46,684 nt of DNA, from positions 1 to 46,684 of the forward strand of contig SVRD01000015.1 in the NCBI GenBank assembly GCA_015064955.1, given 5' to 3'. Positions 24,393-42,561 of this stretch are shown here, in pieces. A program made the translations under genes and the position numbers. Origin of the DNA: Oscillospiraceae bacterium (GTDB lineage Bacteria; Bacillota; Clostridia; Oscillospirales; CAG-382). A model generated the notes under the pieces. It was not told the origin of the DNA. It searched no databases and saw nothing but the letters and a program-made list of their open reading frames with translations. The stretch's first letter is position 1; every line of letters starts with the position of its first letter.

Positions 24393-24977
24393 TTATGCTT
24401 CTTTTTTGATGTTGAGCAATCTCACGATTACCGGGCTGAGAATGATATTTGTTGCAAGCTCAAAGAGGAAGTTTCCGCCTGCCAAGCCCAAAAACATATA
24501 TTCCGCCGCGTTTGAAAAGCCTGCCGCAGCGCCCCACTCGGTGATGGTTTCCATAAAGAACACCACGCCGCCGATAAAGAAGATACCGGTATTTACAACA
24601 GGACAAACGATCGCCGCAACGATAACAGCCGCATAAACGTTATGCTTCGACAGCGCCTTGTAAACAAGACCCGCACAAAGACCGCAGGCTGTTCCCTTTA
24701 CAAGAACGGTAATGATAGCGCCCGCCGCATTGACCGCGAGGAAAGGAGCCGCATCACCGCTCAGAAGCACCGCCGCGCCGAACATAAATCCCAGCCAAGC
24801 GCCGATCTTTGTTCCGCATTTTGCCGCGCCGACTACGATCGGAACAAGCACGAGCGTGATCGAAAACATACCGAAACGGATAAAGCTTCCGAGAAGCTGA
24901 AGCACGATAACAAGTGCGGTAAGGATAGCGCCGAGAACAAGAGTTTCGGTCGATGCTTTAGTATGCTGTTTATTCAT
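24393..24977 (-). CDS. ECF-type transporter S component, substrate unknown
   Basis: A 194-residue membrane protein with six hydrophobic segments, the substrate-binding S component of an energy-coupling-factor importer. It needs the shared EcfT and EcfA proteins, which are not in the window. The N-terminal helix (LVLGAILTALVIVLQLLG) has the alanine-rich face that docks with EcfT. The gene stands alone with a consensus promoter and no recognisable riboswitch, so the vitamin cannot be inferred. Its topology resembles FolT/PanT/RibU-like proteins. Confidence 0.85.
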   Translation of the reverse strand: MNKQHTKASTETLVLGAILTALVIVLQLLGSFIRFGMFSITLVLVPIVVGAAKCGTKIGAWLGFMFGAAVLLSGDAAPFLAVNAAGAIITVLVKGTACGLCAGLVYKALSKHNVYAAVIVAAIVCPVVNTGIFFIGGVVFFMETITEWGAAAGFSNAAEYMFLGLAGGNFLFELATNIILSPVIVRLLNIKKEA

Positions 24978-26709: not shown

Positions 26710-26741
26710 TTGCATAAATCATCATTTTATGGTATAATACC
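26710..26741 (+). promoter_or_regulatory. Promoter of the giant-ATPase operon with a palindrome over the -10
   Basis: TTGCAT (26710-26715), 17 bases, TATAAT (26733-26738), about 65 bases before the first ATG. GGTAT-A-ATACC (26731-26741) forms a palindrome exactly over the -10, a possible operator for the WYL protein of the same operon. AAGGGG is the ribosome site. Confidence 0.75.
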
Positions 26742-26802
26742 AATAATTATATTTTGTAGCTCTTCTATACTCGCAAAAAGAGATACGGCAAGGGGATTTG
26801 AT

Positions 26803-29800
26803 ATGTCAGATATAAGCATCACCGAAGCAAAGAAAAAAAACATTGATGAGGCGCTGAAAAACCAGATAGCGCAACTTGCAGTAGATTTTTTCAAAGCAAG
26901 AAACGGCGAGGCGGTCAACATCACTGTGTTGAACACCGACGTGTTTGTGCCCAACAACATAAACTACAAAGAATATATGCCCACAGGAACGGGTATGCTG
27001 AAAAGATTTTTGGGGCTGTTCCCCGAATTCCTTTCGCTCACCGAAAAAAATATGAACGGCAATATTCAATATTTCTGCTCGCTCAAAAAGCATAGCAAGA
27101 ACGAAATCAAGAATATACTTATCGATATTGTAAAAGAAGCGGGCGGCAGCGAGTTGCTTGCAAAAATACGTCCTACACTGTCAAAAAAAGGTATTTGCAC
27201 GAGTATCGTTTCGGGCGGACGCAATCTGCTTCCCTGGCTGAAAAGCGATTACGGTAAGTATTTCGTTTTTGATGATAACTACATTTCACTTGCGGAGGGC
27301 ATCGGCAATACCGAAGCTTCCTCGGACGCAGGTGTAGCCGTCAAAGCCGGCGATACGACGCAATTGGACAGCGAAATTGTACAGATGCACGACATTTCAT
27401 TTATGTCGTGGTGGAGCAACAATGCCAAAACCCTGCAAAAATACACCGCACGCACAAAAACGAGCGACGAATGGCGATCTGACATAGCTCGCGCACTCGC
27501 ACGTGCCGTTGCAGGATTGTCGCCGCTTTATATCTATACCTCGGAGCAGGGCAAAAAAATCGTATTTGACACCGATATCAAGACCGCAAACGGAAATACG
27601 ATCTACTGTGTTCTTAAAACAAACCCCGATAACGAACTCGGCGACCGCCAGGCCTACGCGATGGAGCGTTTTTGCAGTATTGCCGAGGAATCGGACGAGC
27701 TTACCGAGGAAATCAGGCAATACTTACCCGAAATTTTCAGGTCGGAAAATCAACTCGAGATCAAATACAATGAGTTGAAGAGCGATCTCGATTTTCTCTT
27801 GCAGTCGCGTGATACGTTAAGTGAGCTTTTGTCCGGATTTTCGGAAAATATTTCAAACGGCGTTGCGATAGACGACAGATTTTTCGGCGCGCTCAAACTT
27901 TACCGCGACAAATGGAACCACGCAAAAAATATAATCGAATATCTCGGCTGGGACACCGAAAACGAAGAAGAAATCAACCTCATCACTCTCAAGCAACGTC
28001 TCGAATGCTCCAACAGAAAGGCGGACATATTCAAGAAGGCTGTTGAAAGATTTATAAGCTTCGCGGAATCGATGCGTGTTTATTTAAACAGCAAATTTCT
28101 CGAAGAAATGGCAGACGACGTAAGCAAAGATATAGACTTTATCAAAAACAGCGATATCGAAGCTAACCAAGAAATCAAAAATCGGTTGGATTATTATATA
28201 CGTCTTATGGATATCAGCGATTCCGATGATTCGAGCGAAGCTGATATAGAATATCTTCGCGAGCATTTTGCATCGTTTTCAAAGCCGATTTTCATGCTGT
28301 GCTTCCACAAAAAAACCGCAGAAGCTTTTGGCGTTGACAGTAAATCTGCCCCAAGTGAAATAATGACGTTATTATCTTCGGTCGATTCGTTTGTCGAAAC
28401 CGAAGGCGAGGAAGACAGTACCGAACCGATCGTTACAGACACCTCGAAGCTATTGCACGATGCAATAGAATTTTCCGTCAATTCCAATGCCGACATTCTG
28501 GCAGAAATATTCGAAGCGACGAAAAGCATAGGCACCTCGAAGCTCGAAAAGGCAATAATCGCAGGAGATTACCACAGGTGCAAGAATCTGATTGCAAACG
28601 GAATCCCCGCAGGTATAAACAAAACCGCAGACGAGCTGATCGGCGAAATCGAAGCGCTCGAAGCAAGCGGAAATACAGCCATGTCGCTGTATGACTGCGG
28701 CAAGCGCTTGTATGATACGGTAGGAAATATCGACCGACATGCCGAGCAATATATAATCGCCGGACTTATAAGCGATTCCGACAGAAGCAGCAGAGTTTTG
28801 CTCGATCTCTACATTGAAGAAAACGAGCCCGATCTTTTCTACAAAGTATGGGAAAAATATGCTCGCGACGCAGCGCTTTCTGCCGAGCAGACCAAATATC
28901 TTATTTATGCGCTCGCATTCAAGGGCGAAGACGTGTTGCGCGAATATCTCGACAAACATATTTGCTTGTTCTACGTCGCCGAATACTTCGATGCAATACG
29001 CGAGGCATTGAAGGAATTCAATTATTCGGAGCTTTTGTCAATTTTCGAGGACAGACGCTCGAAGATCGACCCTACTCCTCAAAACGAGCTCGAAAAGCAG
29101 ATACTTGCCGCATCGAACAAATCGGATTTTGAAAGAATCATCGAGAATATACGGTCTTCTTCCGTTCTTGCCGAGCTTAAATATACCGATGAAGAGGCAG
29201 ACAATCTTATTGATTCGCTGAGCTTTTATGCAACGGCAGAGGAGCAGATTACTCCTATCGAAAGACTTTATGAACTCCAACGGAACAAGAATGGGACAGT
29301 CGAGAAGTATATTTGGGATTCGCTGTTCCGTCAGTATGACAATGACAGCTGTATTATTCTTCTGAAAATCATGTGCGATGCGCACCGTTATGACGAGCTG
29401 TGCAAGCTTTATGAGTGCTATGTCGAATCGCTTTCCGGACAAGCGGTTGCGAGAGAACTTTATATGACAGGTCTTTTGAACACGACGAGCGAAAAGCTTG
29501 CCGTGTGCTTGTGCGCAAATCTTCAGGATTGTATGAGTATACTCACGAGCGGCAAGGTCGATTCCGATATTTTCAGGAATGCCGCGGAAGAATTTTCGGA
29601 CTCGGGCGACGAAAGCACCGCGATGCTGTGCAAAAAGGTGCTTGATCTCAGCGGTTACCTTTCCGACGGAATTATTAAAAGTATTGTTTTGATTTCGGAC
29701 GGCTTGAGAGAAACAGCTGTCAATGCCGAAAAGCTCGTTGAATTCGGATTGGATACAGCTCGAATCGAAAGCTTCGTTTCGCGATACAAAACCGACAGTT

Positions 29801-32800
29801 TTTCCAGAAAATACGACGTTTTGGGAATTGCCGAAAGGCTTTATTCGTTCATCGGCATCGAAAAGGGCGCAGCAGAGGCTTTCGCGAAAGTTGCTCTGGA
29901 AAACGGATACAACGCAGCCCGTTTGCTTTGGAAGATATACAGCGACACCGACAACATCGACGCAAAGCTTCTCCTGCTTACCGAGTATCCCCAGATACGC
30001 ACCGGCAGAGAGGCGGAATACTGCGAGATTCTGTTCATCACGGGCGAATACGAACGATTTTTGCAGGAATCCGAAAAAGCCGAAGAAAACGCTTTACTTG
30101 TTGCAAAGCGTATTATCGCCAAATGCAACACCGGCGAAAGTATAAACGCCGAGCTTGAACAGCTACAAAGCGGCATCGGCAATCTTTCTGCCGACATCAT
30201 GGTGAAAATTGCCGAAGCAATGATAACCAACAAATATGACGAGCAATACCGCAGATTCGTCGCAGAATGTTTTGACGAGCTGATTTTGCTTTACGCAAAC
30301 GATATTATCGACAGAATCATTACCGCAGACGGTAAAGCAAGCGAAGACGATATCAAGAAGCTTCAGAAGCACGCTTTGAGCGAGGATTCGCAAGCAGCGG
30401 CGATCTATATTTATGAGAACTACGGAATCGGTCGTATGAAGGGTGCTTCGAAGGACTTCTTCAAGGAAACGTTCGAGGCGAAATACGACAATGAAGAAGA
30501 AAGATCCTCGGCAATAAGGCTGTTAAAGGCGATATATGCCAAGAACGAGGATTTCTCAAACGATCTCGTTTTGAAAGACGTATCGGAAGCACTTTCTTCT
30601 TCCGACGCTGATATTAAAGCAATTTGCATCAATATCGAACGCGCAATAGAGGGCGCGGCTTTGTCCGCGCGCGGTTTTTCCGAGCTGCTCGGAATGCTGA
30701 AGCCGCACGATCTGCCGCTTACTCCGAAAACAGCGATGAGCATTATCAGGCACTGCAACACCGACGAGTCCGAAAGAGAGGTTCTCGATTTCTTCGGAAA
30801 CGCAAAGCATTGTGAGGGCGAAGCCTACTTTGAGTTTTTGAACACGCTGTGCATTATGTACACGACAGCGCTCAAAAACGGATTTTTCAAACTCGAATGG
30901 AAAGAAAACGCAGAAAGCATTTGCGCCCGTCTTGCAGATACCGAATATTCCGACAGTGCGGCAATTTGCGTATTTTATATTCAAAAGCTTTACGGCGAAC
31001 GTAATTATGCGAAATTTATTCTTTTACTGCTTTTCGAAAAGAAAAATTTGATTTCCGACGAGATTTCGCAGGAAATTGAAGCAGAAGCAAAGATATTCGG
31101 GATTGATGCCGAAACAACAATGCTCGATCTTTTCATCGAGACAGCAAAGTCTGCAAATCTTGATGAGATTACCGAGTACTGTGAATTCTGCGGCAAGTTC
31201 TTCAATGACAAAGATTCTCTGCCGAACTATTACAACAAGCTTGAAGATGACGCGGAGGACTCTTATACCGACGAGCACTTCATTGCTGTGCTCAAGCTGC
31301 TTTATTGCGATTCACGCGAGGGCGAGTATTGGAATTGGTGTGCAACAAACCTTCCGCTTGAGGACGCGCCCGAAATATACGCAAAGCTGTTTTATAAAGC
31401 TGCCCTGCTCACAAACAAGGACTCCGTATGGAAGAGATGTATCTCTGCTTGCGAGCTTTATTCAACCGAAGGACTTCTTTCAAACGTACTTCTCGACTGT
31501 GCAAGGAATGCCGCACTCCCCTACGGATTGAAGAATCTGCGCTCGATTCTGGCAGAAAAGGGTGACAGCGACCCGATGTACTTCTCTCAGCTCCGTGAGG
31601 AAGTTTTGGTAGAGCTTGTGGATATTATGTGTACCCGCACGAACAGTGATCCCTCATCAAAGGGATTGCACGATGCGGTACGAGATATCGCCGCTATCGC
31701 AATCGCCTCCGATTCCAAAAAGGCATATTCGATGATGATGAGTCACAACGGGGAATATATTTTCAACGGATCATCCAGCATCGGAATCGCTATTGCAAGC
31801 AGGCTTTTGCTCAGAAAGCGCTTTGAAGAAGCGAAAACGATTTTGCAAACGCTTTCGAATACTCACTGCAAATATTCCGGACTTGTAAAGAGGCTTTCGG
31901 CTATGTCTGCAGATGAATTATCGAGCTGGGCCTCTATCGACTACAACGAGGAGATCTTAAACATTATTCTCCCCGACGGCAATTATCCCGATATTCATAG
32001 TATCAACAATATCGCACTTTCATATATGTCCGAGGAAAAAGCAGAGGCGGGCGCGATGATAATAAACAGTCTTCTGGACGAGCAACCGCATGACTACGGT
32101 TGTTACTCGGCGCTCTTCCTGCTTTGTAAGCTTTTGCCCCACAGACTTGACCTGCTTCACAAGGCGCTCTGCGGCTTGACCTGCTACGAGCCCTCCGGAA
32201 GTGCAAAATCCTATTACAGCCGTTCCCGCAAGGACAACGCTATTGCACTTGCAACCCTAAACGTAATAATATGTGCACAGGGCAAGCAAGAAGAAATAAG
32301 CGAGTTTGACGGATATGATTTCCGGGAAAGTGCCAAGGATTATTATCAGCGGTTCGGAGACAGCAACGTCAGGAATCTCGATGATATTCAAAACGCTCAG
32401 TCGATTATCGAGCGTGCTTTGATGAATCAATCGGAGGATGGCGCGAAAATTATCTCTGCCATGGTCTTTGGCCGTATTACCGGCAACTGGTGCGAATTCC
32501 TTACGCTTTGCTACGACAGCAATACAAACGCCGGATCATATCTCGATTATTACGAGGATATCAATTTAGGACTCGCCAGAAGCATACTCAAGGTTGCTTA
32601 TTCGATGAATGAGCAAAAGAACGATTTCATCAAGTGGGTACAAAAGAGGATTCCGGGCGAAGACAAAAACTCCCTTAGAAACTTGCAAGCGAAAACCGCA
32701 TATGAAATATTCCAAAACGATTATTACAGCCAGATCCCTCACGACCTTTTTGAAATCGATATTCTCGATATGCCGTTTGAGGAAAGCCACGTATTCGAGC

Positions 32801-35800
32801 TGTGCTTTAAGCGTGCGGTGATGCAGGTCATATCCAAAGACCCCGTATCCACTATGCCTTGTGCGATGTTAGCCGTATCCATGGCACATTCCGACAGCGC
32901 GATGAGCGAGCTTTGGCACACGGCAATGCACTCATTCGAGAAATCGAGAGATTATATCGCATACAGTCTTTTCTACGTATTGCACAAGGTTTGCCGTAAT
33001 CTGAAAATATACCACGGCAAGCACGCTTACCACGGCAAGAGTGCCCACGGCAAGCGCGATGACGAATCGTTAAATCTGTACATAGCCGGCGAAAAGTACG
33101 AAGCGCTTATGAGAGTATCGGGTGCATTTGCAGGAAATGACGATATCGCTTCCTATATTTCCGACCCCGAGTTCAACGCTTGGAGCTGTATTAATATGCT
33201 GATGGCACTTATATACACTCAAAGAGCCAACGAAGCGGAAAGACTCAAGCAATTTTTCGCACCCAACAACCAACAGCTTGCAGATACACTTCTGCTTGTT
33301 ATAAACAAGAGTGTAAGCGACAGAGAAAAAATAGAAGCGGTAAAGGCATTGGAAAGCGAAAATGCAAGAGGTGTTCTTTGCTTTATTATGACAAAAGGCT
33401 TCACCTCCGAAAGCGTATCGGGCGAAATCCTCGAAATCCAACGGATAATCGTCGAAGAATCCAACAACAAAAATTTCCGAAATGCTGACGCGCGCGACAA
33501 ATATTCTCCCACGCACTTTATATGGTTGGAAACACAAAGAATACACGAAACCGCAACAAAACAGATTGAAAACTTTATCGAGCCCGAAAAGCCCGAAAAC
33601 AAGATTTTTGAGCAATTCAGCGAAAAGCCCGAAGCACAGTTCGGCGAAAGAATTACTCTCGCCGCTGAAGCAACAACCCCGTTTTACGAGCTTTCGATAT
33701 TGAAGGATATCGAGCCCGCTGCCCAAACCGACGCAAGCATAGAGGATCTGTGGAAGGAGCACGAAAGCTTTTTCTCGCTCGACAGCGAAAATTGCAAACG
33801 CAAGCTTGAGCTTACAAAGCGTATTTATCAGATCGCACTGTATGAAAACACAAGCAACAAGCTTTTAAACAGCTACGCGATCAAATACGGCGTTGATTAT
33901 TATTACGACTGTATCGTCAACAAAAAATACGAGGCGGCGCGCGATCTGATTCTCGAGCTGGTAAATTCCTATGACCCTGCAAGCAACGCGGAAAGTGCAA
34001 ATATTTTGAAAAATCTGGTTCGTACCAGAGGACTCAACGAGCTTTTACACCGAGGTTATTCCTCGATACGTCCGATGGCAGAAGCATATATGAACAACAA
34101 GCAGGCGTTTATCAAAATGCGTAATATGCTTCCCGAAAGCAAGATGCACGCCGAGATCGAAGACGTCAATACCATATATGCGGTCCTGGAATCGATCACA
34201 AACTGCTTAAAGGAGTCTGCCGCAAACGACACAGCCGCGTTGAAGATGGTTTTGTCAAAGGCAAGAAGCCGTTTGAACAAGACGGCACCTTTCGGTTGGG
34301 CAGAAATCAGGCAGTCGATATCGCTTATGATAAGAGATGAGATCAACAAGCTGGATCAAAGACCGATTCTTTCATATGAGATCCTCAGCAAAACAGCAAG
34401 CAGTCCGACCGGAGATATTCACGGCAGTATAAAGAATATCGGAAACGTGGCTGCGGAAAATATCACTGTTCAAATCGAATACAAAAACGGGTTCTCCGGC
34501 AGTCCCTACGTTCTTTCTCGATTGGGCAAGGACGAAATTGCGATATTCGAAATCTATTATACATCGGAAATCGGAACGCAATCGCTCGATTACGAAATTT
34601 TCATAACCTATGAAAGCAAGGGTGAGAAGTACCGTATAAGCAGCAATCATACCCTCACGATAAGCGAGCAGAATGATGTTGACTTCCCGACCGGTCTTTA
34701 TCTGACCGACAGGCCTATTGCCGACTTTGTTTTGGCAGAGGACGGTACCGTATACAGCAAGAATTTCTTCGGCAGAGAAGAAGAAAAGAAACGCATTGAA
34801 AGTATTTTCAACGGTAGCAGCTTTGCCGAATACAAAAACGTCATAATCAATGGTATCAGGCGTGCAGGTAAGACCTCGATACTCAATTATCTTGTCGCAT
34901 ATGCAAACTTCAAATGTGACGATGCCATCGCAATATTTACGACCTGCGAGGGCATTAAGGCAAATGAGGCTCCGATACAGCGAGTATTGATCAACTCTGT
35001 AATCAACGAATCCAAAATACGCAACGTCGGCAAAAAATCCGAGGAGGAATGGGAACGCTTCGAGAAAAAATGGGTTCCCCGCGAAAGAACCGAGGACTGC
35101 AACCCCGAGGACCTTCAGTATTTCTACCGTGAATTGAAAATAATGAACGGCGGAAAGGGTTTGATGCTGGTTATCGACGAGTTCGACATTCTTATCGAAA
35201 CGGTAGAAAGCAACCGCGGCGTTTACAGCTCGTTGCTTCCCTCGTTGCGTGTGCTTCTCAACAGCGTATATTGCCAAGATGCAATACATCTGGCGATTTG
35301 CGGCTCGAACAAGCTGATAAGATATATGGACGGCGGTACTCTCAACCAGCTCTTCCAGCAATTCGGCGACAATGTAATAGAGATCGGCAGACTTCTTGAC
35401 AGAGATATGAAGGAAATGCTGCTTTCTCCCTACCGCGAATACCCCAATGTAAAAATCACCCCCGAGGCACTGAACTGGATATGGAAATACACAAACGGCT
35501 TGGTTTGGTATTCAAAGCTTGTTGCTAACTGTGCACTTGTGAGAGCATCAAAGCACAAAAGAAGCACGGTATATCCTGCCGACATCGCAAGCGCGGTGAC
35601 GACAGTGACCGGAAACGACGAATATTTCAAGAGTCTTATCACAAGCTGCAGTCCCGCCGAGCAAAAGGCGATCGGTGCAATTCAGGCGATAACCTCCAAA
35701 GCGACAGAATACGTATCAGTCACAAAGCTTATGGAGCTTCTCTCGCACGAATTCTCGCAGAAGGACGTAGAAACGCTTGTAAGTACACTCGAAAGAATGC

Positions 35801-35970
35801 AAATACTGCAGCGAAATCCATATGACAAATACTCATACAGATTTGCTGTCGAGCTGTATTGGCATTATTTCAGAGTTTCGCCGTCGGACTACAAACGATG
35901 CGAAGAGATGCCCGTTGTCTTTACAGAGAAGAAAACTCAATCTGCTAACACACACGATGACGATTATTAA
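26803..35970 (+). CDS. Giant helical-repeat protein with C-terminal STAND-type ATPase (gene A of candidate defence operon)
   Basis: A 3055-residue soluble protein, unusually large. Seen in order: two winged-helix, LOTUS/OST-HTH-like modules (about 15-95, and 100-165 ending GKYFVFDDNYISL); a segment of mixed structure (190-280); about 2200 residues of helical, TPR/HEAT-like repeats; a CARDB-like beta sandwich (about 2522-2620, GSIKNIGNVAAENITVQIEY); and a STAND/archaeal-type ATPase. The ATPase has the entry FFGREEEKKRI (2655), Walker A GIRRAGKTS (K2690) and Walker B LMLVIDEFD (D2792, E2793). A winged helix follows (2950-3035). The ATG at 26803 is chosen for its AAGGGG site; the frame is open upstream to 26578 but crosses the promoter. 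The family is not one I can name. Interpretation as a nucleic-acid-sensing switch is inference. Confidence 0.8.
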   Translation: MSDISITEAKKKNIDEALKNQIAQLAVDFFKARNGEAVNITVLNTDVFVPNNINYKEYMPTGTGMLKRFLGLFPEFLSLTEKNMNGNIQYFCSLKKHSKNEIKNILIDIVKEAGGSELLAKIRPTLSKKGICTSIVSGGRNLLPWLKSDYGKYFVFDDNYISLAEGIGNTEASSDAGVAVKAGDTTQLDSEIVQMHDISFMSWWSNNAKTLQKYTARTKTSDEWRSDIARALARAVAGLSPLYIYTSEQGKKIVFDTDIKTANGNTIYCVLKTNPDNELGDRQAYAMERFCSIAEESDELTEEIRQYLPEIFRSENQLEIKYNELKSDLDFLLQSRDTLSELLSGFSENISNGVAIDDRFFGALKLYRDKWNHAKNIIEYLGWDTENEEEINLITLKQRLECSNRKADIFKKAVERFISFAESMRVYLNSKFLEEMADDVSKDIDFIKNSDIEANQEIKNRLDYYIRLMDISDSDDSSEADIEYLREHFASFSKPIFMLCFHKKTAEAFGVDSKSAPSEIMTLLSSVDSFVETEGEEDSTEPIVTDTSKLLHDAIEFSVNSNADILAEIFEATKSIGTSKLEKAIIAGDYHRCKNLIANGIPAGINKTADELIGEIEALEASGNTAMSLYDCGKRLYDTVGNIDRHAEQYIIAGLISDSDRSSRVLLDLYIEENEPDLFYKVWEKYARDAALSAEQTKYLIYALAFKGEDVLREYLDKHICLFYVAEYFDAIREALKEFNYSELLSIFEDRRSKIDPTPQNELEKQILAASNKSDFERIIENIRSSSVLAELKYTDEEADNLIDSLSFYATAEEQITPIERLYELQRNKNGTVEKYIWDSLFRQYDNDSCIILLKIMCDAHRYDELCKLYECYVESLSGQAVARELYMTGLLNTTSEKLAVCLCANLQDCMSILTSGKVDSDIFRNAAEEFSDSGDESTAMLCKKVLDLSGYLSDGIIKSIVLISDGLRETAVNAEKLVEFGLDTARIESFVSRYKTDSFSRKYDVLGIAERLYSFIGIEKGAAEAFAKVALENGYNAARLLWKIYSDTDNIDAKLLLLTEYPQIRTGREAEYCEILFITGEYERFLQESEKAEENALLVAKRIIAKCNTGESINAELEQLQSGIGNLSADIMVKIAEAMITNKYDEQYRRFVAECFDELILLYANDIIDRIITADGKASEDDIKKLQKHALSEDSQAAAIYIYENYGIGRMKGASKDFFKETFEAKYDNEEERSSAIRLLKAIYAKNEDFSNDLVLKDVSEALSSSDADIKAICINIERAIEGAALSARGFSELLGMLKPHDLPLTPKTAMSIIRHCNTDESEREVLDFFGNAKHCEGEAYFEFLNTLCIMYTTALKNGFFKLEWKENAESICARLADTEYSDSAAICVFYIQKLYGERNYAKFILLLLFEKKNLISDEISQEIEAEAKIFGIDAETTMLDLFIETAKSANLDEITEYCEFCGKFFNDKDSLPNYYNKLEDDAEDSYTDEHFIAVLKLLYCDSREGEYWNWCATNLPLEDAPEIYAKLFYKAALLTNKDSVWKRCISACELYSTEGLLSNVLLDCARNAALPYGLKNLRSILAEKGDSDPMYFSQLREEVLVELVDIMCTRTNSDPSSKGLHDAVRDIAAIAIASDSKKAYSMMMSHNGEYIFNGSSSIGIAIASRLLLRKRFEEAKTILQTLSNTHCKYSGLVKRLSAMSADELSSWASIDYNEEILNIILPDGNYPDIHSINNIALSYMSEEKAEAGAMIINSLLDEQPHDYGCYSALFLLCKLLPHRLDLLHKALCGLTCYEPSGSAKSYYSRSRKDNAIALATLNVIICAQGKQEEISEFDGYDFRESAKDYYQRFGDSNVRNLDDIQNAQSIIERALMNQSEDGAKIISAMVFGRITGNWCEFLTLCYDSNTNAGSYLDYYEDINLGLARSILKVAYSMNEQKNDFIKWVQKRIPGEDKNSLRNLQAKTAYEIFQNDYYSQIPHDLFEIDILDMPFEESHVFELCFKRAVMQVISKDPVSTMPCAMLAVSMAHSDSAMSELWHTAMHSFEKSRDYIAYSLFYVLHKVCRNLKIYHGKHAYHGKSAHGKRDDESLNLYIAGEKYEALMRVSGAFAGNDDIASYISDPEFNAWSCINMLMALIYTQRANEAERLKQFFAPNNQQLADTLLLVINKSVSDREKIEAVKALESENARGVLCFIMTKGFTSESVSGEILEIQRIIVEESNNKNFRNADARDKYSPTHFIWLETQRIHETATKQIENFIEPEKPENKIFEQFSEKPEAQFGERITLAAEATTPFYELSILKDIEPAAQTDASIEDLWKEHESFFSLDSENCKRKLELTKRIYQIALYENTSNKLLNSYAIKYGVDYYYDCIVNKKYEAARDLILELVNSYDPASNAESANILKNLVRTRGLNELLHRGYSSIRPMAEAYMNNKQAFIKMRNMLPESKMHAEIEDVNTIYAVLESITNCLKESAANDTAALKMVLSKARSRLNKTAPFGWAEIRQSISLMIRDEINKLDQRPILSYEILSKTASSPTGDIHGSIKNIGNVAAENITVQIEYKNGFSGSPYVLSRLGKDEIAIFEIYYTSEIGTQSLDYEIFITYESKGEKYRISSNHTLTISEQNDVDFPTGLYLTDRPIADFVLAEDGTVYSKNFFGREEEKKRIESIFNGSSFAEYKNVIINGIRRAGKTSILNYLVAYANFKCDDAIAIFTTCEGIKANEAPIQRVLINSVINESKIRNVGKKSEEEWERFEKKWVPRERTEDCNPEDLQYFYRELKIMNGGKGLMLVIDEFDILIETVESNRGVYSSLLPSLRVLLNSVYCQDAIHLAICGSNKLIRYMDGGTLNQLFQQFGDNVIEIGRLLDRDMKEMLLSPYREYPNVKITPEALNWIWKYTNGLVWYSKLVANCALVRASKHKRSTVYPADIASAVTTVTGNDEYFKSLITSCSPAEQKAIGAIQAITSKATEYVSVTKLMELLSHEFSQKDVETLVSTLERMQILQRNPYDKYSYRFAVELYWHYFRVSPSDYKRCEEMPVVFTEKKTQSANTHDDDY
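33012..33054 (+). repeat. Three CCACGGCAAG repeats inside gene A
   Basis: The decamer CCACGGCAAG occurs at 33012, 33030 and 33045 and encodes three HGK motifs near residues 2070-2084. It looks like a small in-frame expansion in a loop. Confidence 0.75.
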
Positions 35971-35978
35971 TAACAAGG

Positions 35979-36007
35979 CTGTCGGCGGCTGTACTAACCG
36001 CCGACAG
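35979..36007 (+). promoter_or_regulatory. Strong intercistronic hairpin between genes A and B
   Basis: CTGTCGGCGG (35979-35988) pairs perfectly with CCGCCGACAG (35998-36007) across a 9-nt loop. No T-run follows and gene B starts 23 bases later with AAGGAG, so it is more likely an mRNA stability or processing element than a terminator. Confidence 0.7.
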
Positions 36008-36030
36008 CAACAAGATATCAAGGAGCTTTT

Positions 36031-37944
36031 ATGAACCCATTCAACGTAAATGCTATGCCGGTTGACACACTCTCGGCGCTCTTCGGCAGAGAAGCCGAAA
36101 TCAAAAAGTTAAAAGAACATATTGAAGAGAAAAAGCAAACCGTAGTATTGGGTGTTGAGGGCGTCGGCAAAACCTCTTTGTTGCGAAGCGTTTTCAACAG
36201 AGAATACAGAATACAAAAGGCGCTTGACCACACCATTATTTCGCCCGTAACCGAATTCCCGGCGGGCTTGAAGAACGACGACATTTATTCACACTTTACC
36301 GAAATGATACTCAGCTCCGTGCGTATTCTTGCACAATGCGATAAAAGAGATGAAATGAATGACATTCTTGCCGCATGCGATGAAGAGCGCAGGAACAATC
36401 TCAAGCCTGCCGAATTTTTCGAAAAGGTCTTGAACATTTTTTACGATACTTACGGATACAGAATCGTAATGATTGTGGATGATTTCGAGCGCTTCACTGC
36501 CTCCACCGAGGTTACCAAGGAACACCATGAGGTTCTTCGCAAGCTGTTAAGCAAATCGCAATATATAGTTGCCAGCAACTATGATCTGAATCAGGATTCT
36601 CTCCCGAGCGACGTAAGCGGTTCGCTTTATTTGCAGGCGTTTGCGGGCAACGAAATCTGTATCGGCGGTTGGTCACACGATAATGCGGTCGATTATATTT
36701 ATTCGCGCTTAAATACCGCGGAAATCGAATTGTCGGAAAGAACCGTAGATGCAATCATCAACGTTTCGGGCGGCATTCCCGCAATATTGAATCTCGCGGC
36801 TAATTATGCATATGATCACGTTGCAAAAAACGGTACCGAGGACGGATTGAAATTCAAGCCGTTATACGAAAATAACCAACGAATGAAAATGCTTTTCGAT
36901 CATTGGAGCAAAATGCTGCTACCCAAGCACATAACCGCATTGACGCATTTGATCGAAAACAATTACGACAATGAACAGGACCGCTCTAATCTCGAGTGCC
37001 TTTTAATGAGAGGTCTTGTCAAAAAACACAGCGAAACAGATAAGTTCGGTCATACCCGCTCGTTCGACGGAGTATATGAATTTTGCTGTAAATTCTTCGA
37101 GACCTATTGTAAAAACGAAAGCAATATGATTGCCGCGGCAGAGAAGAACCCGCTCAAAAGCGTTTTGAAAGCAGACAACTGCTCCCCGAAGACCGATGAG
37201 CTCGAAATAGGCGAGCTTGTAGAGCTGCTCAAAAAGAAAATCGACGAAATAGACGCTCCCAAAGAGCAATTACTCGAGATCGTTAATCAGTTTGGCGCTT
37301 ATTTGCCCAACGTTACGGGCGCGATCGCTCTTGACGAGGATCTTACCGACGATATTTTGTCGAACTATCTGCTGAGCAGGGACTATATGTCGAAATTCGA
37401 CGAAAAGGTTCGCGATTTCTTATTTAACGGAATACAGATGGACAGATGCTTTTCAAACATAACGCTCGAAGGCTTTGATTACAGTCTTGTTTATATTTCG
37501 TTTTGTAAAGCGGTCGAGGTTCATTTGAACAACACCCTCGTTCCGATAATCAAAACGATTTGCCCGAACGTAATTTACAACAACGTATCGCCGATATCCG
37601 CACTGCCGAGCAACGAAACGTTGACACTCGGCACGATAAGCTATATTCTCTCGAAGCGCGGAATCGGGATTTCAAATTCAGCGATCGAGGAAATAAAGAG
37701 CTATTGCCATAATAATCAGCTTACTCAATACCCTGACAATTGGTGGGACAGCCTGCTCAATTCAATCAAGAAGATAGCCGCAAGCCGCAACAACTGTCCT
37801 CACTGCAGTATACTGAGTGACGCAGAAGGAAAAAAATTGCTCAAATCGCTTTTCTCAAGCAACAAAAACGATCCCGACAAATCGTTTATGATGAAATGCG
37901 TCGCGGTATACAAAGACTTGATGAATATACCGAGCGTCTGTTAA
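36031..37944 (+). CDS. STAND-type ATPase with C-terminal HEPN-like RNase domain (gene B)
   Basis: A 637-residue soluble protein. The N-terminus is a STAND/archaeal-type ATPase: entry box LFGREAEIKKL (17-27), Walker A GVEGVGKTS (K47), Walker B YRIVMIVDDFERF (D150, D151), then sensor helices and a winged-helix-like part up to about 390. The C-terminal 190 residues are all helical; helix FCKAVEVHLNNTLVPI and the later SRNNCPHC element (R586-x4-H591) match the layout of HEPN domains, whose R-x4-6-H motif is the catalytic RNase centre. It shares its box and ATPase clade with the end of gene A. AAGGAG precedes the ATG. HEPN is inferred from pattern, not a search. Likely the effector of the operon, cutting RNA when triggered. 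Confidence 0.75.
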   Translation: MNPFNVNAMPVDTLSALFGREAEIKKLKEHIEEKKQTVVLGVEGVGKTSLLRSVFNREYRIQKALDHTIISPVTEFPAGLKNDDIYSHFTEMILSSVRILAQCDKRDEMNDILAACDEERRNNLKPAEFFEKVLNIFYDTYGYRIVMIVDDFERFTASTEVTKEHHEVLRKLLSKSQYIVASNYDLNQDSLPSDVSGSLYLQAFAGNEICIGGWSHDNAVDYIYSRLNTAEIELSERTVDAIINVSGGIPAILNLAANYAYDHVAKNGTEDGLKFKPLYENNQRMKMLFDHWSKMLLPKHITALTHLIENNYDNEQDRSNLECLLMRGLVKKHSETDKFGHTRSFDGVYEFCCKFFETYCKNESNMIAAAEKNPLKSVLKADNCSPKTDELEIGELVELLKKKIDEIDAPKEQLLEIVNQFGAYLPNVTGAIALDEDLTDDILSNYLLSRDYMSKFDEKVRDFLFNGIQMDRCFSNITLEGFDYSLVYISFCKAVEVHLNNTLVPIIKTICPNVIYNNVSPISALPSNETLTLGTISYILSKRGIGISNSAIEEIKSYCHNNQLTQYPDNWWDSLLNSIKKIAASRNNCPHCSILSDAEGKKLLKSLFSSNKNDPDKSFMMKCVAVYKDLMNIPSVC

Positions 37945-37983
37945 TGCAAATACACTTGTGATGACAGTTCAAGGAGTTTTATA

Positions 37984-40851
37984 ATGGCGGTTGATGCTGA
38001 ATTCATCGGCTCGGAAGGCTTCAATATAAAATTCAAAAACTATCTGAGGGATTTTTATATCTATCAGTTCAAGGAGCGCGGCAGTGATTTCAAGGTTCGG
38101 GGGACGAACGACAAAACCGATCTGAACAAAGACGTTATAGACGGTACCTACTACCCCGACGTTAAAAGACTGCAATACACCTTGGAGCAGGCGGCGGGTG
38201 TCCAATGGCGCAACGGCGACATCAAGGACTCAGAAAACGACCGTATCGACCCATCGAGGATAAACCGCAGGGTCGAATGCGTCACCGTCGATGCAAGACA
38301 GATAACCGAGAACCCCTTCTTTTCGCTGTACCGTTTTTGCAGTGAGAGCGCTGTCGAGGCGGGCGCGCACTTCTCGTTTATCTACGGAATTCTGATGTAT
38401 TTTATGCTATGGAAGCGCACCGAGATAGTCGATTACAAGCCGCTTTGCAGAGAAGAGCTCGATAGTCTTGATTTTTTGCTCAAAAATTGGGCGCTGGATA
38501 TCTACGCCGCAGAAAAGCGTAATGCCAAAACAGAAAATTGGCGTAATTTCGAAAGTAAGCACGAATACGCAAATAAAGCAATAAAAAGATACAATGCCGA
38601 CCCCACCTATTACACAAAACTGATGGGGTTGAGCGGCAACGACGAGCAAGCCGAAAAAATCCATAAGCATATTTCAACTTATAAAAAGAAAATCTGCTTC
38701 GACGGGACTCGTTTTTATATCGAAAACGATTGTGACAGCTTTGTCGAAAAGAGCAAGCTGTTTTATGCGATGCATAATCTCGGGCTTTGCGACGATCAAA
38801 GGAAAAATTTCGAGCTGAAGATGAACGAGCTGGTCGAGCTTGGGATTATTACGGCAAAAAAGGAAGAGCAAAGGGTGAAATATGCCCTCTCCGATATCTT
38901 TTTGACAGATATTCTCGGCAACGACGAAAGCTTCAACACCCGATTCGCCGATATGGTGTCCTTCTTTTCGCAAACGAGCATGCTTGGAGTTATCGGAAGC
39001 TATGTTCTGAACCGTCTGCCCGAGCGAAAAAATGATTTTATTTATTACAAGCACAACTATTTAAAGCGCGCGCTCAACGATTACAACAATATCGACCTGC
39101 TTTATGCGATAGAAAACAAATATTGGACGGTTATCGAATACCGCAACGCTTCGATGAACGACTTGGAATATCAAAGGCTTGTCTGCTTCCCTATCGAAAT
39201 ACGCGAAAGCGTAAACGACGGCAGGCAATATCTGATCTATTACCACCCGATCTACCGCAGTGTTTCGGCGGTGAGAATCGAGTTTATCGACAGCATCACG
39301 ATCGGAACGATGCCTGCCGACGAGAATTTCGAGCAGGATATCGAAAGGGCAAAGATTCTTATAAAGCATACCTGGGGCACGGCATTTAATAATTTCGCGG
39401 AGGGCAATCTCAAAGAGCCGCTTGTGCCGAGAAAATTACGTATTGTTATAAAATACGATGAAAGCGAAGGCTTTATAAGAGCACGAGTGCGCCGCGAGCT
39501 GAGAAGAATAGCGAGCTTTGAGGAGATTATGCTCGACGGGCACGGCCGGTGTATCGAAATCACCGCCGACGTGGCAAACCATTACGAAATGCTTCAATGG
39601 CTGAGAAGCTATACAAGACGCATTGTTTCGGCAGAAACAGACGGTGAGCCGCTCGACAGCTTCACTGCCGATATCGAAAAAACATATTTGCGCTATACCG
39701 ATCCGAGCGCACTCGAAAAATCCGAAAATGTTTCGTCAAAACACGGAAAAACGGTTCTGCGCGATGAAATTCCCAAAAATTTAAAGGAGACGAATAATCT
39801 GCACAGTCTGATTTTTAACGAGATTTTCGGAATCGCATTTGAGGAGCTCGGAAAAACACTGACCGATGTTTCCAAATGCTTACGGATTTCCTCCGACGAA
39901 TTCGATGGGTTCGAAAGTGAATACGCTTTGCTTTTCGCTTCTCCGATCTTTAAGGGGCAATCAAGCAGAAAGACCGAAACCGCCCGTATGAATCAGGCAG
40001 ACGGATTTTTGATGCGGTTTGTCGATTTCAAGAGCTCGGGTATTACTCCGAGATTCAGGTTCACGAACGCGGCGGACAGCGCGCAGGAGATGCTCCCGCT
40101 TACCGCGATCGAGATTCAGTGGCTTAACAACATACTGAATCACCCGTTTGCAAAATGCTTTCTTACAAACGGCGAAATCGATCGGCTTCTTGCTCACTTC
40201 ACAGACAAAAAGCTGTTTGATATAAACCGCACGGTTTTATACGACAGTTTCTCCGATACCGACAGATTTTACGACAGTGAGCCGTTTTTCGAGACGGCGA
40301 GAAAAATTTTCGGTGCGATACACGATAGAAGAAAACTCGTTTTGAAATACAGATCGCAATACGAAACGGTGTCGGACTATCTCTGCGCGCCCGTATATAT
40401 CGAATATTCAAAGCGCGACAATCGCTTCAGGCTATATGCGATATGCAACAATACGGTCAGAATATTTAATCTCGAACGTATTGTTACAGCCGAAACGACC
40501 GACGAGAGCTTTGATATTTCGTCCGCAAAAAAAGCGATAAACACATATTTCGCGATAAACGAGCGCGAAATGGTCGTTTCGTTTGATGAAACGATGAACG
40601 TTCCCGACAGGATACTCACCGAATTTTCCTGCTTCAAAAAGAAATGTATTAAATGGTCGGACAGCTCCTACCGAATGACGCTTTGCTACAACAGCTTTGA
40701 CAAGCGCGAGATTTTGATAAGGCTTTTGAGCTACGGCTCGCTTGTATTTATAGAGGACGACAGCGGCGACGTGCGGGCAGAGCTGATAAGCAGGCTCGAA
40801 AGCCAACTATCGCTTTCAAAAGAGCTTTTACCCGACGAGGAAATACTCTAA
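37984..40851 (+). CDS. Protein with central winged helix and two WYL modules (gene C)
   Basis: A 955-residue soluble protein. The N-terminal 130 residues (FKNYLRDFYIYQFKERG, then DARQITENPFFSLYRF) match the start of long Clostridial WYL-domain proteins. A winged helix lies near residues 258-306 (MNELVELGIITAKKEEQRVK). A first WYL module is at about 368-440 (FPIEIRESVNDGRQYLIYY), followed by a WCX-like tail (482-552, MLQWLRSYTRRI). A helical spacer (600-770) leads to a second WYL module at about 775-955 (LVLKYRSQY, RFRLYAICN, LERIVTAE). WYL domains bind nucleic-acid or nucleotide ligands and regulate many defence loci. Spacing to gene B is 39 bases, with AAGGAG. It probably senses a signal or represses the operon; which is unknown. 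Confidence 0.8.
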   Translation: MAVDAEFIGSEGFNIKFKNYLRDFYIYQFKERGSDFKVRGTNDKTDLNKDVIDGTYYPDVKRLQYTLEQAAGVQWRNGDIKDSENDRIDPSRINRRVECVTVDARQITENPFFSLYRFCSESAVEAGAHFSFIYGILMYFMLWKRTEIVDYKPLCREELDSLDFLLKNWALDIYAAEKRNAKTENWRNFESKHEYANKAIKRYNADPTYYTKLMGLSGNDEQAEKIHKHISTYKKKICFDGTRFYIENDCDSFVEKSKLFYAMHNLGLCDDQRKNFELKMNELVELGIITAKKEEQRVKYALSDIFLTDILGNDESFNTRFADMVSFFSQTSMLGVIGSYVLNRLPERKNDFIYYKHNYLKRALNDYNNIDLLYAIENKYWTVIEYRNASMNDLEYQRLVCFPIEIRESVNDGRQYLIYYHPIYRSVSAVRIEFIDSITIGTMPADENFEQDIERAKILIKHTWGTAFNNFAEGNLKEPLVPRKLRIVIKYDESEGFIRARVRRELRRIASFEEIMLDGHGRCIEITADVANHYEMLQWLRSYTRRIVSAETDGEPLDSFTADIEKTYLRYTDPSALEKSENVSSKHGKTVLRDEIPKNLKETNNLHSLIFNEIFGIAFEELGKTLTDVSKCLRISSDEFDGFESEYALLFASPIFKGQSSRKTETARMNQADGFLMRFVDFKSSGITPRFRFTNAADSAQEMLPLTAIEIQWLNNILNHPFAKCFLTNGEIDRLLAHFTDKKLFDINRTVLYDSFSDTDRFYDSEPFFETARKIFGAIHDRRKLVLKYRSQYETVSDYLCAPVYIEYSKRDNRFRLYAICNNTVRIFNLERIVTAETTDESFDISSAKKAINTYFAINEREMVVSFDETMNVPDRILTEFSCFKKKCIKWSDSSYRMTLCYNSFDKREILIRLLSYGSLVFIEDDSGDVRAELISRLESQLSLSKELLPDEEIL

Positions 40852-40874
40852 TACAAAATACAACAGATATAAAG

Positions 40875-40905
40875 ATCACCCGATAAGCACTCGGGTGATT
40901 TTTTT
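40875..40905 (+). terminator. Terminator of the three-gene operon
   Basis: ATCACCCGA (40875-40883) pairs perfectly with TCGGGTGAT (40891-40899) around a 7-nt loop, followed by a run of seven T ending at 40905, 24 bases after the gene C stop. Confidence 0.92.
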
Positions 40906-41045
40906 CAACTTTGACTGCCAATGGGCACGAAGATTACTGCCGAGCATCGTGGTAGAATGCAGACATGAACATAATCGAAGCGGAAATTTTTTCAACTTTG
41001 ATTTCCAAAGCCGCTGATTACTCTCCTTTTTAATAATGGTAGAAT
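40900..41045 (+). repeat. Two diverged ~60-bp promoter-like repeats
   Basis: Copy 1 (40900-40958) and copy 2 (40987-41045) share TTTTTTCAACTTTGA at the start, GATTACT in the middle and TGGTAGAAT at the end. The distance from the first box to the last is the same in both (35 bases between them). TGGTAGAAT is an extended -10 (TGnTAGAAT), so these look like tandem promoters with an upstream activator or repressor box, driving the nuclease gene at 41087. Confidence 0.6.
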
Positions 41046-41086
41046 TCAGCCATAACAAAAAACTTAAAATTCAGGAGGAAAAACTC

Positions 41087-41959
41087 ATGTCTGTAATTAA
41101 AGCTATTCTTAACCCTTTCCGCAATATCAACACCAAGCCCGAGACTCTGACCGAGGGCTCTTCTGCGCTTGCGCCTGTACACGAGGAGGTTATTCCCCCC
41201 GTGATCGCTCCCGCTGCCGAGAGCGAGGTTTCGGTTGCGAGTGTGAAGGATTACTTCGACGCGAAGGGATATACTGTCGATTTTTCTCACAACACCCCTT
41301 GCAACGCCCACGTTGAAAAGCTCGCATACACCTTCGCCGTGAACTACCGCGCAGTGAAGCCGTTTTTGAAGTACATACGCGAAAGCCTCACAAAAAAGTC
41401 CGAGCGTTTGAACTATTCTCTTACACAATATTCCGACAGCGACAAGGAAAAGATCGCCGCGTTTGCCGAAATACTCGGTGATTACGGAATAACCGCAAAC
41501 GTGTTTTATAACCGCGAAAAAGCGTCGATAAGCGGCAAATTTTCGTACGCACCTAGAGTTATCAACTTTATAAACGGCGATTATCTCGAGATTTACGCCC
41601 GCGCTGTTGCCGAAAAGGTGATAAAGGCGGCGGCGAACGCCCATTGTCTCGACTATGAGGTTTACAGCAACCTGATTATCGAGAAGGACGGGCAGAAGAA
41701 CGAGCTCGATTTAGTGTTCAGAGTAGGCAACTGCATATTCTGGTCCGAGGTGAAAAGCGGCAAGTTTTCCGACTTCGATCACTACCGCAAGCTCGGTGAC
41801 GCGATCGGTCTCAACCCCGACCGCCACATTCTGCTCAGTGCCGAGATCGAGAATGACAAGGCGGAGGCGGTTTCCTGGCTGTACCGTTTCTACGTCGCCA
41901 ATATCGACACGTTCAGACTCAGACTAAACGACATGATCAACAATGCCGTCGAATTCTGA
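41087..41959 (+). CDS. PD-(D/E)xK nuclease, DUF1887/Card1-like but without a CARF domain
   Basis: A 290-residue protein. The N-terminal 60 residues are Pro/Ala/Glu-rich and probably disordered; residues 75-165 form a helical/winged part ending in SGKFSYAPRVINFINGDYLE. The C-terminal nuclease has the order and spacing of DUF1887 (Card1/Can2) enzymes: YLEIY (E168), KNELDLVF (D208) and WSEVKSG (E221-x-K223), all needed for catalysis. The cyclic-oligonucleotide-sensing CARF domain of Card1 is absent. AGGAGG precedes the ATG; the frame upstream to 41036 lies inside a promoter repeat. Two more genes follow closely. A conflict-system nuclease is likely; the substrate (DNA or RNA) is not readable. 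Confidence 0.75.
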   Translation: MSVIKAILNPFRNINTKPETLTEGSSALAPVHEEVIPPVIAPAAESEVSVASVKDYFDAKGYTVDFSHNTPCNAHVEKLAYTFAVNYRAVKPFLKYIRESLTKKSERLNYSLTQYSDSDKEKIAAFAEILGDYGITANVFYNREKASISGKFSYAPRVINFINGDYLEIYARAVAEKVIKAAANAHCLDYEVYSNLIIEKDGQKNELDLVFRVGNCIFWSEVKSGKFSDFDHYRKLGDAIGLNPDRHILLSAEIENDKAEAVSWLYRFYVANIDTFRLRLNDMINNAVEF

Positions 41960-41973
41960 AAGGAGGTTATACA

Positions 41974-42561
41974 ATGAAATCATTTCGTTTCTTTATAAAC
42001 ACCGCCCTTATTCTCTCGATTCTCGCGCTGACAGCGATGTCGGTCGCCAACGCATATATCCAAGGAAAACGCGGAGGGCACACGATAGTCAGCAGCAATC
42101 TGTCCGAGGAGGACAAAAAATGGATCGACGACAATTTCGGTCACTGCGAAACGATCGAGGAGCTGATTATCGAGGCAAACAAATATGCATTTGACAATTT
42201 TGTCTATGACCTCGACAAAACGATACTGCTTCCTGTTCAGTATTTTGATTTCACACGAATCAGAACCGAAATGGGCGGTATATGCTACGACTTCGCCTGT
42301 TGGATGAAGGCGATTGCTCTGAGATGGGGGGAAACGCATGGCGAGGAAACAAAGGCGTTTGTGCTCATTGTGAGAACAAATGGTACCGGCCACGCATACA
42401 ACATTATAAAATCCGACGGCAAAACACTGTACACCGACGTCACCAAAAGCGCCGGCGGCGGTGAAGAAGGAACAGCCCCCTATACCTTTTGCTACGTTGG
42501 TGACCGCTCATTCGATGAGTTTGCATCAGAATACGGCGAAATAATTATCAGTATACTTTAG
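41974..42561 (+). CDS. Exported transglutaminase-like cysteine protease/peptidase
   Basis: A 195-residue protein with an N-terminal membrane segment (FRFFINTALILSILALTAMS) and a transglutaminase-core fold. The triad is complete: GGICYDFACW (C104), GTGHAYN (H140) and LYTDVT (D155). Bacterial members are usually proteases or peptidases that act at the cell surface. GGAGG lies before the ATG, 14 bases after the nuclease stop. The gene after it starts 10 bases later, so the three form one operon. The link to the nuclease is unexplained. Confidence 0.85.
   Translation: MKSFRFFINTALILSILALTAMSVANAYIQGKRGGHTIVSSNLSEEDKKWIDDNFGHCETIEELIIEANKYAFDNFVYDLDKTILLPVQYFDFTRIRTEMGGICYDFACWMKAIALRWGETHGEETKAFVLIVRTNGTGHAYNIIKSDGKTLYTDVTKSAGGGEEGTAPYTFCYVGDRSFDEFASEYGEIIISIL

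Follow-up and report, generated by a model that had tools for sequence, protein, structure and literature searches.

The window analysed here is positions 1 to 46,684 of contig SVRD01000015.1 (assembly GCA_015064955.1) from an Oscillospiraceae bacterium, and the coordinates of genes A, B, C and D are positions in it. A sequence-only reading of this DNA had proposed one operon encoding a candidate conflict system, with a giant protein ending in a STAND ATPase (A), a second STAND ATPase fused to a HEPN-like RNase (B) and a protein with two WYL modules (C). Three closely spaced genes lie on the + strand with a ribosome-binding site ahead of each, and their boundaries and positions were confirmed. 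Gene A (26803..35970, +) encodes 3055 aa from the ATG at 26803, with AAGGGG just upstream; the open reading frame (ORF) lists give a longer start at 26578, and the ATG was taken. Gene B (36031..37944, +) encodes 637 aa, a STAND ATPase with a HEPN-like tail, and gene C (37984..40851, +) encodes 955 aa, a fusion of two WYL proteins. A and B are 60 nt apart and B and C 39 nt, and both gaps contain an AAGGAG-type ribosome site. A promoter-like site read from the sequence (26710..26738, +) consists of a -35 TTGCAT (26710-26715), a 17-nt spacer and an extended -10 TGG-TATAAT. Its TATAAT (26733-26738) is perfect and TG-extended, and the -35 matches at 3/6 positions, so that the term "consensus promoter" is generous; the site is missing from the list of a stricter promoter scan of the window. 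Past gene C there is a clear intrinsic terminator, also read from the sequence (40875..40905, +), with a 9-pair stem (40875-40899), a 7-nt loop and six T; the program scan lists this stem for the - strand only. A 13-pair GC-rich hairpin (35978..36008, no strand assigned) occupies the A-B gap and lacks a T-run on the + (coding) strand. The GC content of the operon (0.44-0.46) is close to that of the remaining window, and base composition therefore gives no island signal.

Genes homologous to A were collected by tblastn and profile searches, and the ten genomes with such a gene fall into five families: the window genome; G062; G448; G614 and G679; and the genus g183 (G423, G390, G543, G620 and G719). 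A B-like gene directly follows A in all ten, counting G423, G719 and G620, whose B is fragmented or runs into a contig end. An insert that carries phage major head, head protease and neck genes interrupts the B of G423 (L047 2034-8882); this B was taken for a truncated protein until its second piece was found, and that assignment was dropped. A was present in 2/345 genomes of the order sample, in 6/391 (tblastn) and 5/245 (profile, E <= 1e-20) of the class samples and in 1/249 of the phylum sample; the own genome is counted where sampled, and the samples overlap, so the counts are not additive. In samples around members, A was found in 5/22, 2/32, 1/16 and 2/33 genomes. These results show that A-B is a conserved adjacent pair which is rare and patchily spread. 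A core-genome context, which would have spoken against a conflict system, was not found, as A is absent from all but two of the 345 order-sample genomes.

The layout of A comprises small N-terminal domains, a long body, a beta-sandwich and a C-terminal STAND ATPase, and the last three elements are common to six aligned A proteins; lengths across the family range from about 1600 to 3124 residues. The 3124-aa protein, from another family of the same order, aligns with residues 118-3040 of A at 32% identity (35% in the MAFFT alignment), which shows that A is a real gene. Its locus (L038; JAFYQP010000042.1, a water-buffalo cecum metagenome-assembled genome) was the sole match of a genome-contig scan that rests on two peptide patterns, and the gene after it is a homologue of B (33% over residues 1-439). 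Both the P-loop with K2690 and a Walker-B-like stretch ending in DEFD are kept in this homologue. The ATPase of A covers residues 2650-3045 (34750..35937, +; K2690 codon 34870-34872), with a winged-helix-like C-terminal region recognised by eye. The window A matched AAA_16 of Pfam at residues 2654-2795 with 19.9 bits, below the cut-off of 32.6. The G390 homologue exceeded the cut-offs of both nSTAND1 (35.8 vs 27.1 bits) and ATPase_2 (46.2 vs 33.2 bits), and the P-loop of the window A is shared in the family alignment. A CARDB-like beta-sandwich was placed by this alignment at residues 2520-2625 (34360..34677, +); the CARDB match is weak and comes from the G062 homologue only (E 0.016, below the cut-off).

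The description of A as a protein with N-terminal repeats and a C-terminal ATPase held for the ATPase. The repeats did not appear: a self-comparison of A (blastp, E <= 1) gave no off-diagonal match. The long body is probably helical and may form a solenoid. Residues 1-180 (26803..27342, +) look by eye like two LOTUS/OST-HTH-like units, with three in G062; this assignment serves as no more than a lead, as it is unsupported by Pfam and no LOTUS domain was among the five weak PDB profile matches for the N-terminus. In the libraries searched, A belongs to no known non-defence family. The A of G448 has 2422 aa, and at its start ORFs overlap in different frames (L049 10742-11896 and 3621-10889), perhaps because of a frameshift or an assembly error. 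An Sm-like assignment of the ORF upstream of A in this genome, made from the likeness of its start by eye, was discarded, with no support from the PDB.

Residues 17-253 of B (36079..36789, +) form an nSTAND1 NTPase domain with P-loop K47 (Pfam, 39.7 bits vs a cut-off of 27.1), and the P-loop is kept in the family alignment. The candidate effector is the HEPN-like tail at residues 440-637 (37348..37941, +), which carries R586-N-N-C-P-H591. Passages on HEPN domains in PMC3710099 give the active-site motif as R-x4-6-H, usually with a polar residue after R, at the end of helix 3, and the B motif agrees with this pattern. All eight tailed B proteins have R-[NRK]-x-C-x-H in their last ~200 residues, so that R586-x4-H591 is common to the window B and the seven others found. 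Moreover, all eight tails share D483, S485, E496, I582, R586, C589 and H591 (window numbering) without variation, and the window tail has 13-16% identity to the other aligned tails. Among 269 ORFs of the loci examined, R[NRKDH]xCxH occurred in the last 198 aa of six, all of them B; shuffling the window tail 20,000 times produced it in 25 cases. The predicted model of the tail is all-helical (mean pLDDT 65, pTM 0.71), with R586 at the end of a long helix. Searched with Foldseek, this model gave its top probabilities, among the 50 matches listed, to HEPN proteins (2hsb, 0.21; Csm6 6tug, 0.18), with E-values of 0.59 and 1.4. Judged from motif and model, the tail is likely a HEPN domain, short of statistical proof, and as a putative RNase it would be expected to cut RNA. 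Thus, of the claim that B is a STAND ATPase fused to a HEPN-like RNase, the STAND part was borne out above the Pfam cut-off, and the HEPN-like part stands by its motif, with weak fold and profile matches.

Two B proteins, those of G062 and G448, have no HEPN-like tail. In both genomes, the tail-less B is followed by a gene for a small protein with three hydrophobic segments of membrane-span length, at +4 nt in G062 and -4 nt in G448. These two 3-helix proteins are homologous (blastp, 28% over 92 residues, E 0.001), and none of 1000 shuffles reached the score. The ~1 kb downstream of five of the eight tailed B genes (window, G679, G614, G390 and G543) showed no ORF on the same strand that encodes such a segment. 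The strongest indication that the effector of B is interchangeable, being either a HEPN-like tail or a separate membrane protein, is this correlation between the missing tail and the downstream membrane protein; with two families on one side, it is suggestive.

The third protein was traced through its relatives. C matched WYL of Pfam at residues 772-837 with 21.6 bits, just below the cut-off of 21.8, and WYL of PADLOC in two stretches (1.4e-16). A tblastn search of 99 relatives with C gave matches in 15 genomes, the own genome included. In the other 14, C matches two adjacent genes of about 430 and 300 aa, with its first module (residues 1-571; 37984..39696, +) related to the first gene of the pair and its second module (residues 609-943; 39808..40812, +) to the second. 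The presence of two WYL modules in C was therefore upheld. Fifteen regions with WYL pairs were examined (L021-L035), as G025 gave two contigs. RtcB and/or Band 7 genes lie on the same strand within ~5 kb of the pair in 12 of the 15 contigs, and in the other three the contig stops no more than 0.5 kb from it. One RtcB and one Band 7 protein were checked with Pfam (RtcB, 3.6e-59; Band_7, 2.2e-26). Since C matches adjacent two-gene pairs lying with RtcB and/or Band 7, its sequence identifies it as a fused WYL pair of the rtc-operon type. Within the same order, its relatives are thus found in RtcB RNA-repair operons rather than in known defence loci. In the window, neither RtcB nor Band 7 was matched at E <= 1e-6, and peptide-pattern searches of viral and genome contigs revealed no close relatives of C. 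A DUF2828 gene was seen twice beside a WYL pair with RtcB/Band 7 among the same regions.

A WYL pair is also convergent with and adjacent to B in four g183 genomes (G390, G543, G719 and G620); as these genomes are closely related and share one arrangement, they are treated as a single case. No WYL pair was found in G747, where A was not found either. In G062 a WYL pair lies on another contig, beside rtcB, and in G448, G614 and G679 there was no match to the first WYL protein of g183. A tree places C among the rtc pairs and puts the g183 pairs together with a second fused protein from the window genome. This topology would imply two recruitments, but the branch of C is very long and its position unsure. 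That second fused double-WYL protein has 824 aa and is encoded on contig C22 of the own genome (L068 8281-10755), beside genes that by eye encode a ClpP-like protein and a VirD4/TraG-like coupling ATPase.

Patchy spread and effector exchange are typical of conflict systems rather than of housekeeping functions. We lean, by a modest preference, toward A-B being an accessory two-ATPase conflict system, probably antiphage and abortive, and regulated in some lineages by WYL proteins of the RNA-damage type, here C. The gene boundaries, the A-B pairing, the patchy spread, the correlation of tail and membrane protein, the R-x4-H motif and the kinship of C with rtc WYL pairs were observed directly; to these we add sensing, A-to-B signalling, RNase activity, regulation by C and phage defence by inference. 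A would be a giant receptor that recognises an invader, or a sign of damage, through its variable N-terminus and long body; the STAND ATPase at its C-terminus would relay the signal to the STAND ATPase of B. B would then release its RNase tail, cutting RNA and stopping growth; in the two other families it would instead engage the separate 3-helix membrane protein. Given its kinship with the WYL pairs of RtcB operons, C may sense RNA damage; most likely it would adjust operon transcription when products of such damage are present, for example 2',3'-cyclic-phosphate ends of the kind that known HEPN RNases generate. A further step, which we hold tentatively and regard as doubtful, is that A-B is wired to RNA-repair sensing: rtc-type WYL pairs would have been recruited, perhaps twice, the products of the effector's cuts would set expression, and the effector would swap between RNase tail and membrane protein.

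Several observations weigh against the conflict-system reading, and those on the tail of B come first. The plain R-x4-H pattern is frequent, occurring in 64 of the 269 ORF tails and in 1487 of 20,000 shuffles. A profile built from the other seven tails gave the window tail 8.9 bits (E 0.15), and 1 of 2000 shuffles scored higher. The tail matched no Pfam family at E <= 1, and a PDB profile search of it found no HEPN, the one match listed being a designed protein (E 0.25). Foldseek of the predicted tail, at its pLDDT of 65, gave 0/236 PDB matches at E <= 0.001, and nuclear receptors were among the first by E-value. With no significant HEPN match by profile or fold, and with the winged-helix-like end after the STAND domain of A, A-B could be a STAND-type complex for signalling or transcription that has no toxic effector, with an inactive helical domain as the tail of B. 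We consider this quite improbable, because R586, C589 and H591 stay invariant in eight tails despite the low identity, and because the B proteins that lack the tail are followed by a membrane protein.

The place of C is the second point. A WYL gene adjoins B in 5/10 genomes and in only 2/5 families, so that of the proposed co-occurrence of three genes, that of A with B stood and that of C as an invariant partner did not. No WYL-pair gene was detected (E <= 0.01) in the fetched A-B regions of G062, G448, G614, G679 and G423; the absence in G423, whose B is split by the phage-gene insert, is one case within g183. Furthermore, the tree is compatible with a single origin of the WYL proteins beside A-B. 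C may accordingly be a chance neighbour or a generic WYL regulator, with A-B working alone and the WYL association incidental; WYL regulators are common, and the g183 cases amount to one arrangement. Against this stand the position of C, 39 nt downstream of B and before a shared terminator, and the adjoining WYL pair in the four g183 genomes in which B was not seen split, possibly of another WYL lineage, which is unsure. We regard an incidental association as unlikely, though as an explanation to be taken seriously.

The third point concerns genomic context. No A homologue was found in the plasmids, phages or viral contigs searched, the viral-contig searches using a prefilter of two peptide patterns each, so that nothing points to mobile spread. 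By eye, most genes around A-B look like housekeeping genes. Both observations would suit an RNA-damage stress or quality-control module that is not antiphage: internal stress would lead A-B to cut or process RNA, or to act on the membrane, and C would connect A-B with the RtcB repair response. The RtcB and/or Band 7 genes near the relatives of C in 12 of 15 contigs would suit such a module too. The spread of A in the order sample and the exchange of effectors, which general knowledge associates with conflict systems, argue the other way, and we hold such a module to be rather unlikely.

The expected defence-island context received little support beyond one kind of gene, which is absent from the sequence-only reading. 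Past the terminator, gene D (41036..41959, +) encodes 307 aa with a Card1-like PD-(D/E)XK nuclease domain, which matched the CARF4_PDDEXK (3.2e-10) and Csx1 (1.5e-10) models over residues 67-252; its Pfam matches to NERD (0.0062) and Card1_endonuc (0.12) are both below the cut-offs. In G448, a clearer CARF-PDDEXK protein (2.6e-18) is encoded upstream of A in divergent orientation (L049 11928-13262), and D is weakly like it (E 0.032). A Card1-like nuclease gene is thus beside A-B in two of the five families (window and G448), and D is an uncertain member of the A-B system. The gene at 41974-42561 encodes a transglutaminase-like (DUF553) protein with a hydrophobic N-terminus (Pfam 0.001, below the cut-off).

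To judge the site itself, we compared the same-genus genomes G006 and G002, in which homologues of the 24393-24977 and 43648-45042 genes lie ~8 kb apart. No match to A, B, C or D (E <= 1e-15) was found between these homologues, in 19.9 kb read in G006 and G002, and the genes between them look metabolic by eye. The 24393 homologue is inverted in both relative to the window, and G009 has its 43648 homologue next to a homologue of the 22823 gene. With one flank inverted and the G009 neighbours differing, the region has been rearranged, and G006/G002 were not accepted as a clean empty site. The neighbours of a trkH-like gene likewise differ in order and orientation between same-genus relatives (L092, L093 and L094).

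Among known systems, PADLOC gave no full-length match to a defence model; its matches covered parts of the proteins, mostly around the P-loop, B reaching a best E of 1.1e-4 and A one of 0.033, and no Avs-named PADLOC model was listed for either. An Avs is a single protein with an N-terminal effector, a central STAND domain and a C-terminal sensor. A-B resembles Avs and other STAND antiphage systems in its large STAND ATPases, long sensor region and exchangeable effectors. It differs from Avs in having two separate STAND proteins, in the C-terminal ATPase and N-terminal long region of A, and in an effector carried on the second ATPase or supplied in trans. The Avs layout was therefore not found, the ATPase being at the C-terminus of A and the effector candidate on B.

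The HEPN-STAND fusions described in passages of PMC3710099 likewise join a HEPN domain to a STAND NTPase, with the HEPN domain N-terminal; the tail of B is C-terminal, and B is paired with a giant second STAND ATPase. The inactive-STAND systems outlined in parts of PMC8195603 combine an eroded STAND with GT4 or HEPN effectors, and share with A-B a STAND module and swappable effectors that include HEPN. In contrast to them, A and B keep their P-loops in the members aligned, and the alternative effector is a 3-helix membrane protein. STAND-HEPN fusions, and STAND proteins with swappable effectors, are thus already known in principle.

C is homologous to both members of the WYL pairs of RtcB operons in the same bacterial order, and differs from them in being fused and in lying next to A-B rather than rtcB. 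The rtc regulator covered in passages of PMC7790460 and PMC4012209 is RtcR, a CARF protein acting with sigma-54 and not a WYL protein. In Salmonella, 5' tRNA halves with a terminal 2',3'-cyclic phosphate activate RtcR (a section of PMC7790460), and such ends are made by the RNase L KEN domain, RloC and PrrC according to a part of PMC3710099. WYL proteins are treated in sections of PMC4012209 as carrying a DNA-binding winged helix, often in two copies with predicted binding of nucleotides or nucleic-acid fragments and a role in defence regulation. C resembles these regulators of defence loci in its two copies of WYL and differs in its partner system. In the open-licence literature searched, no description of the A-B-C operon was found, and neither were two co-encoded STAND proteins in this order of parts with an rtc-type WYL protein; a prior mention is possible.

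If the conflict-system reading is true, it would add a two-component STAND design to bacterial immunity, in which a receptor of 1600-3100 residues acts with a separate ATPase hosting exchangeable effectors. It would also tie RNA-repair regulators to an effector that cuts RNA. Since the pair would sit beside a putative ligand-making enzyme, the role and ligand of the WYL pairs in the rtc operons of Clostridia would become testable.

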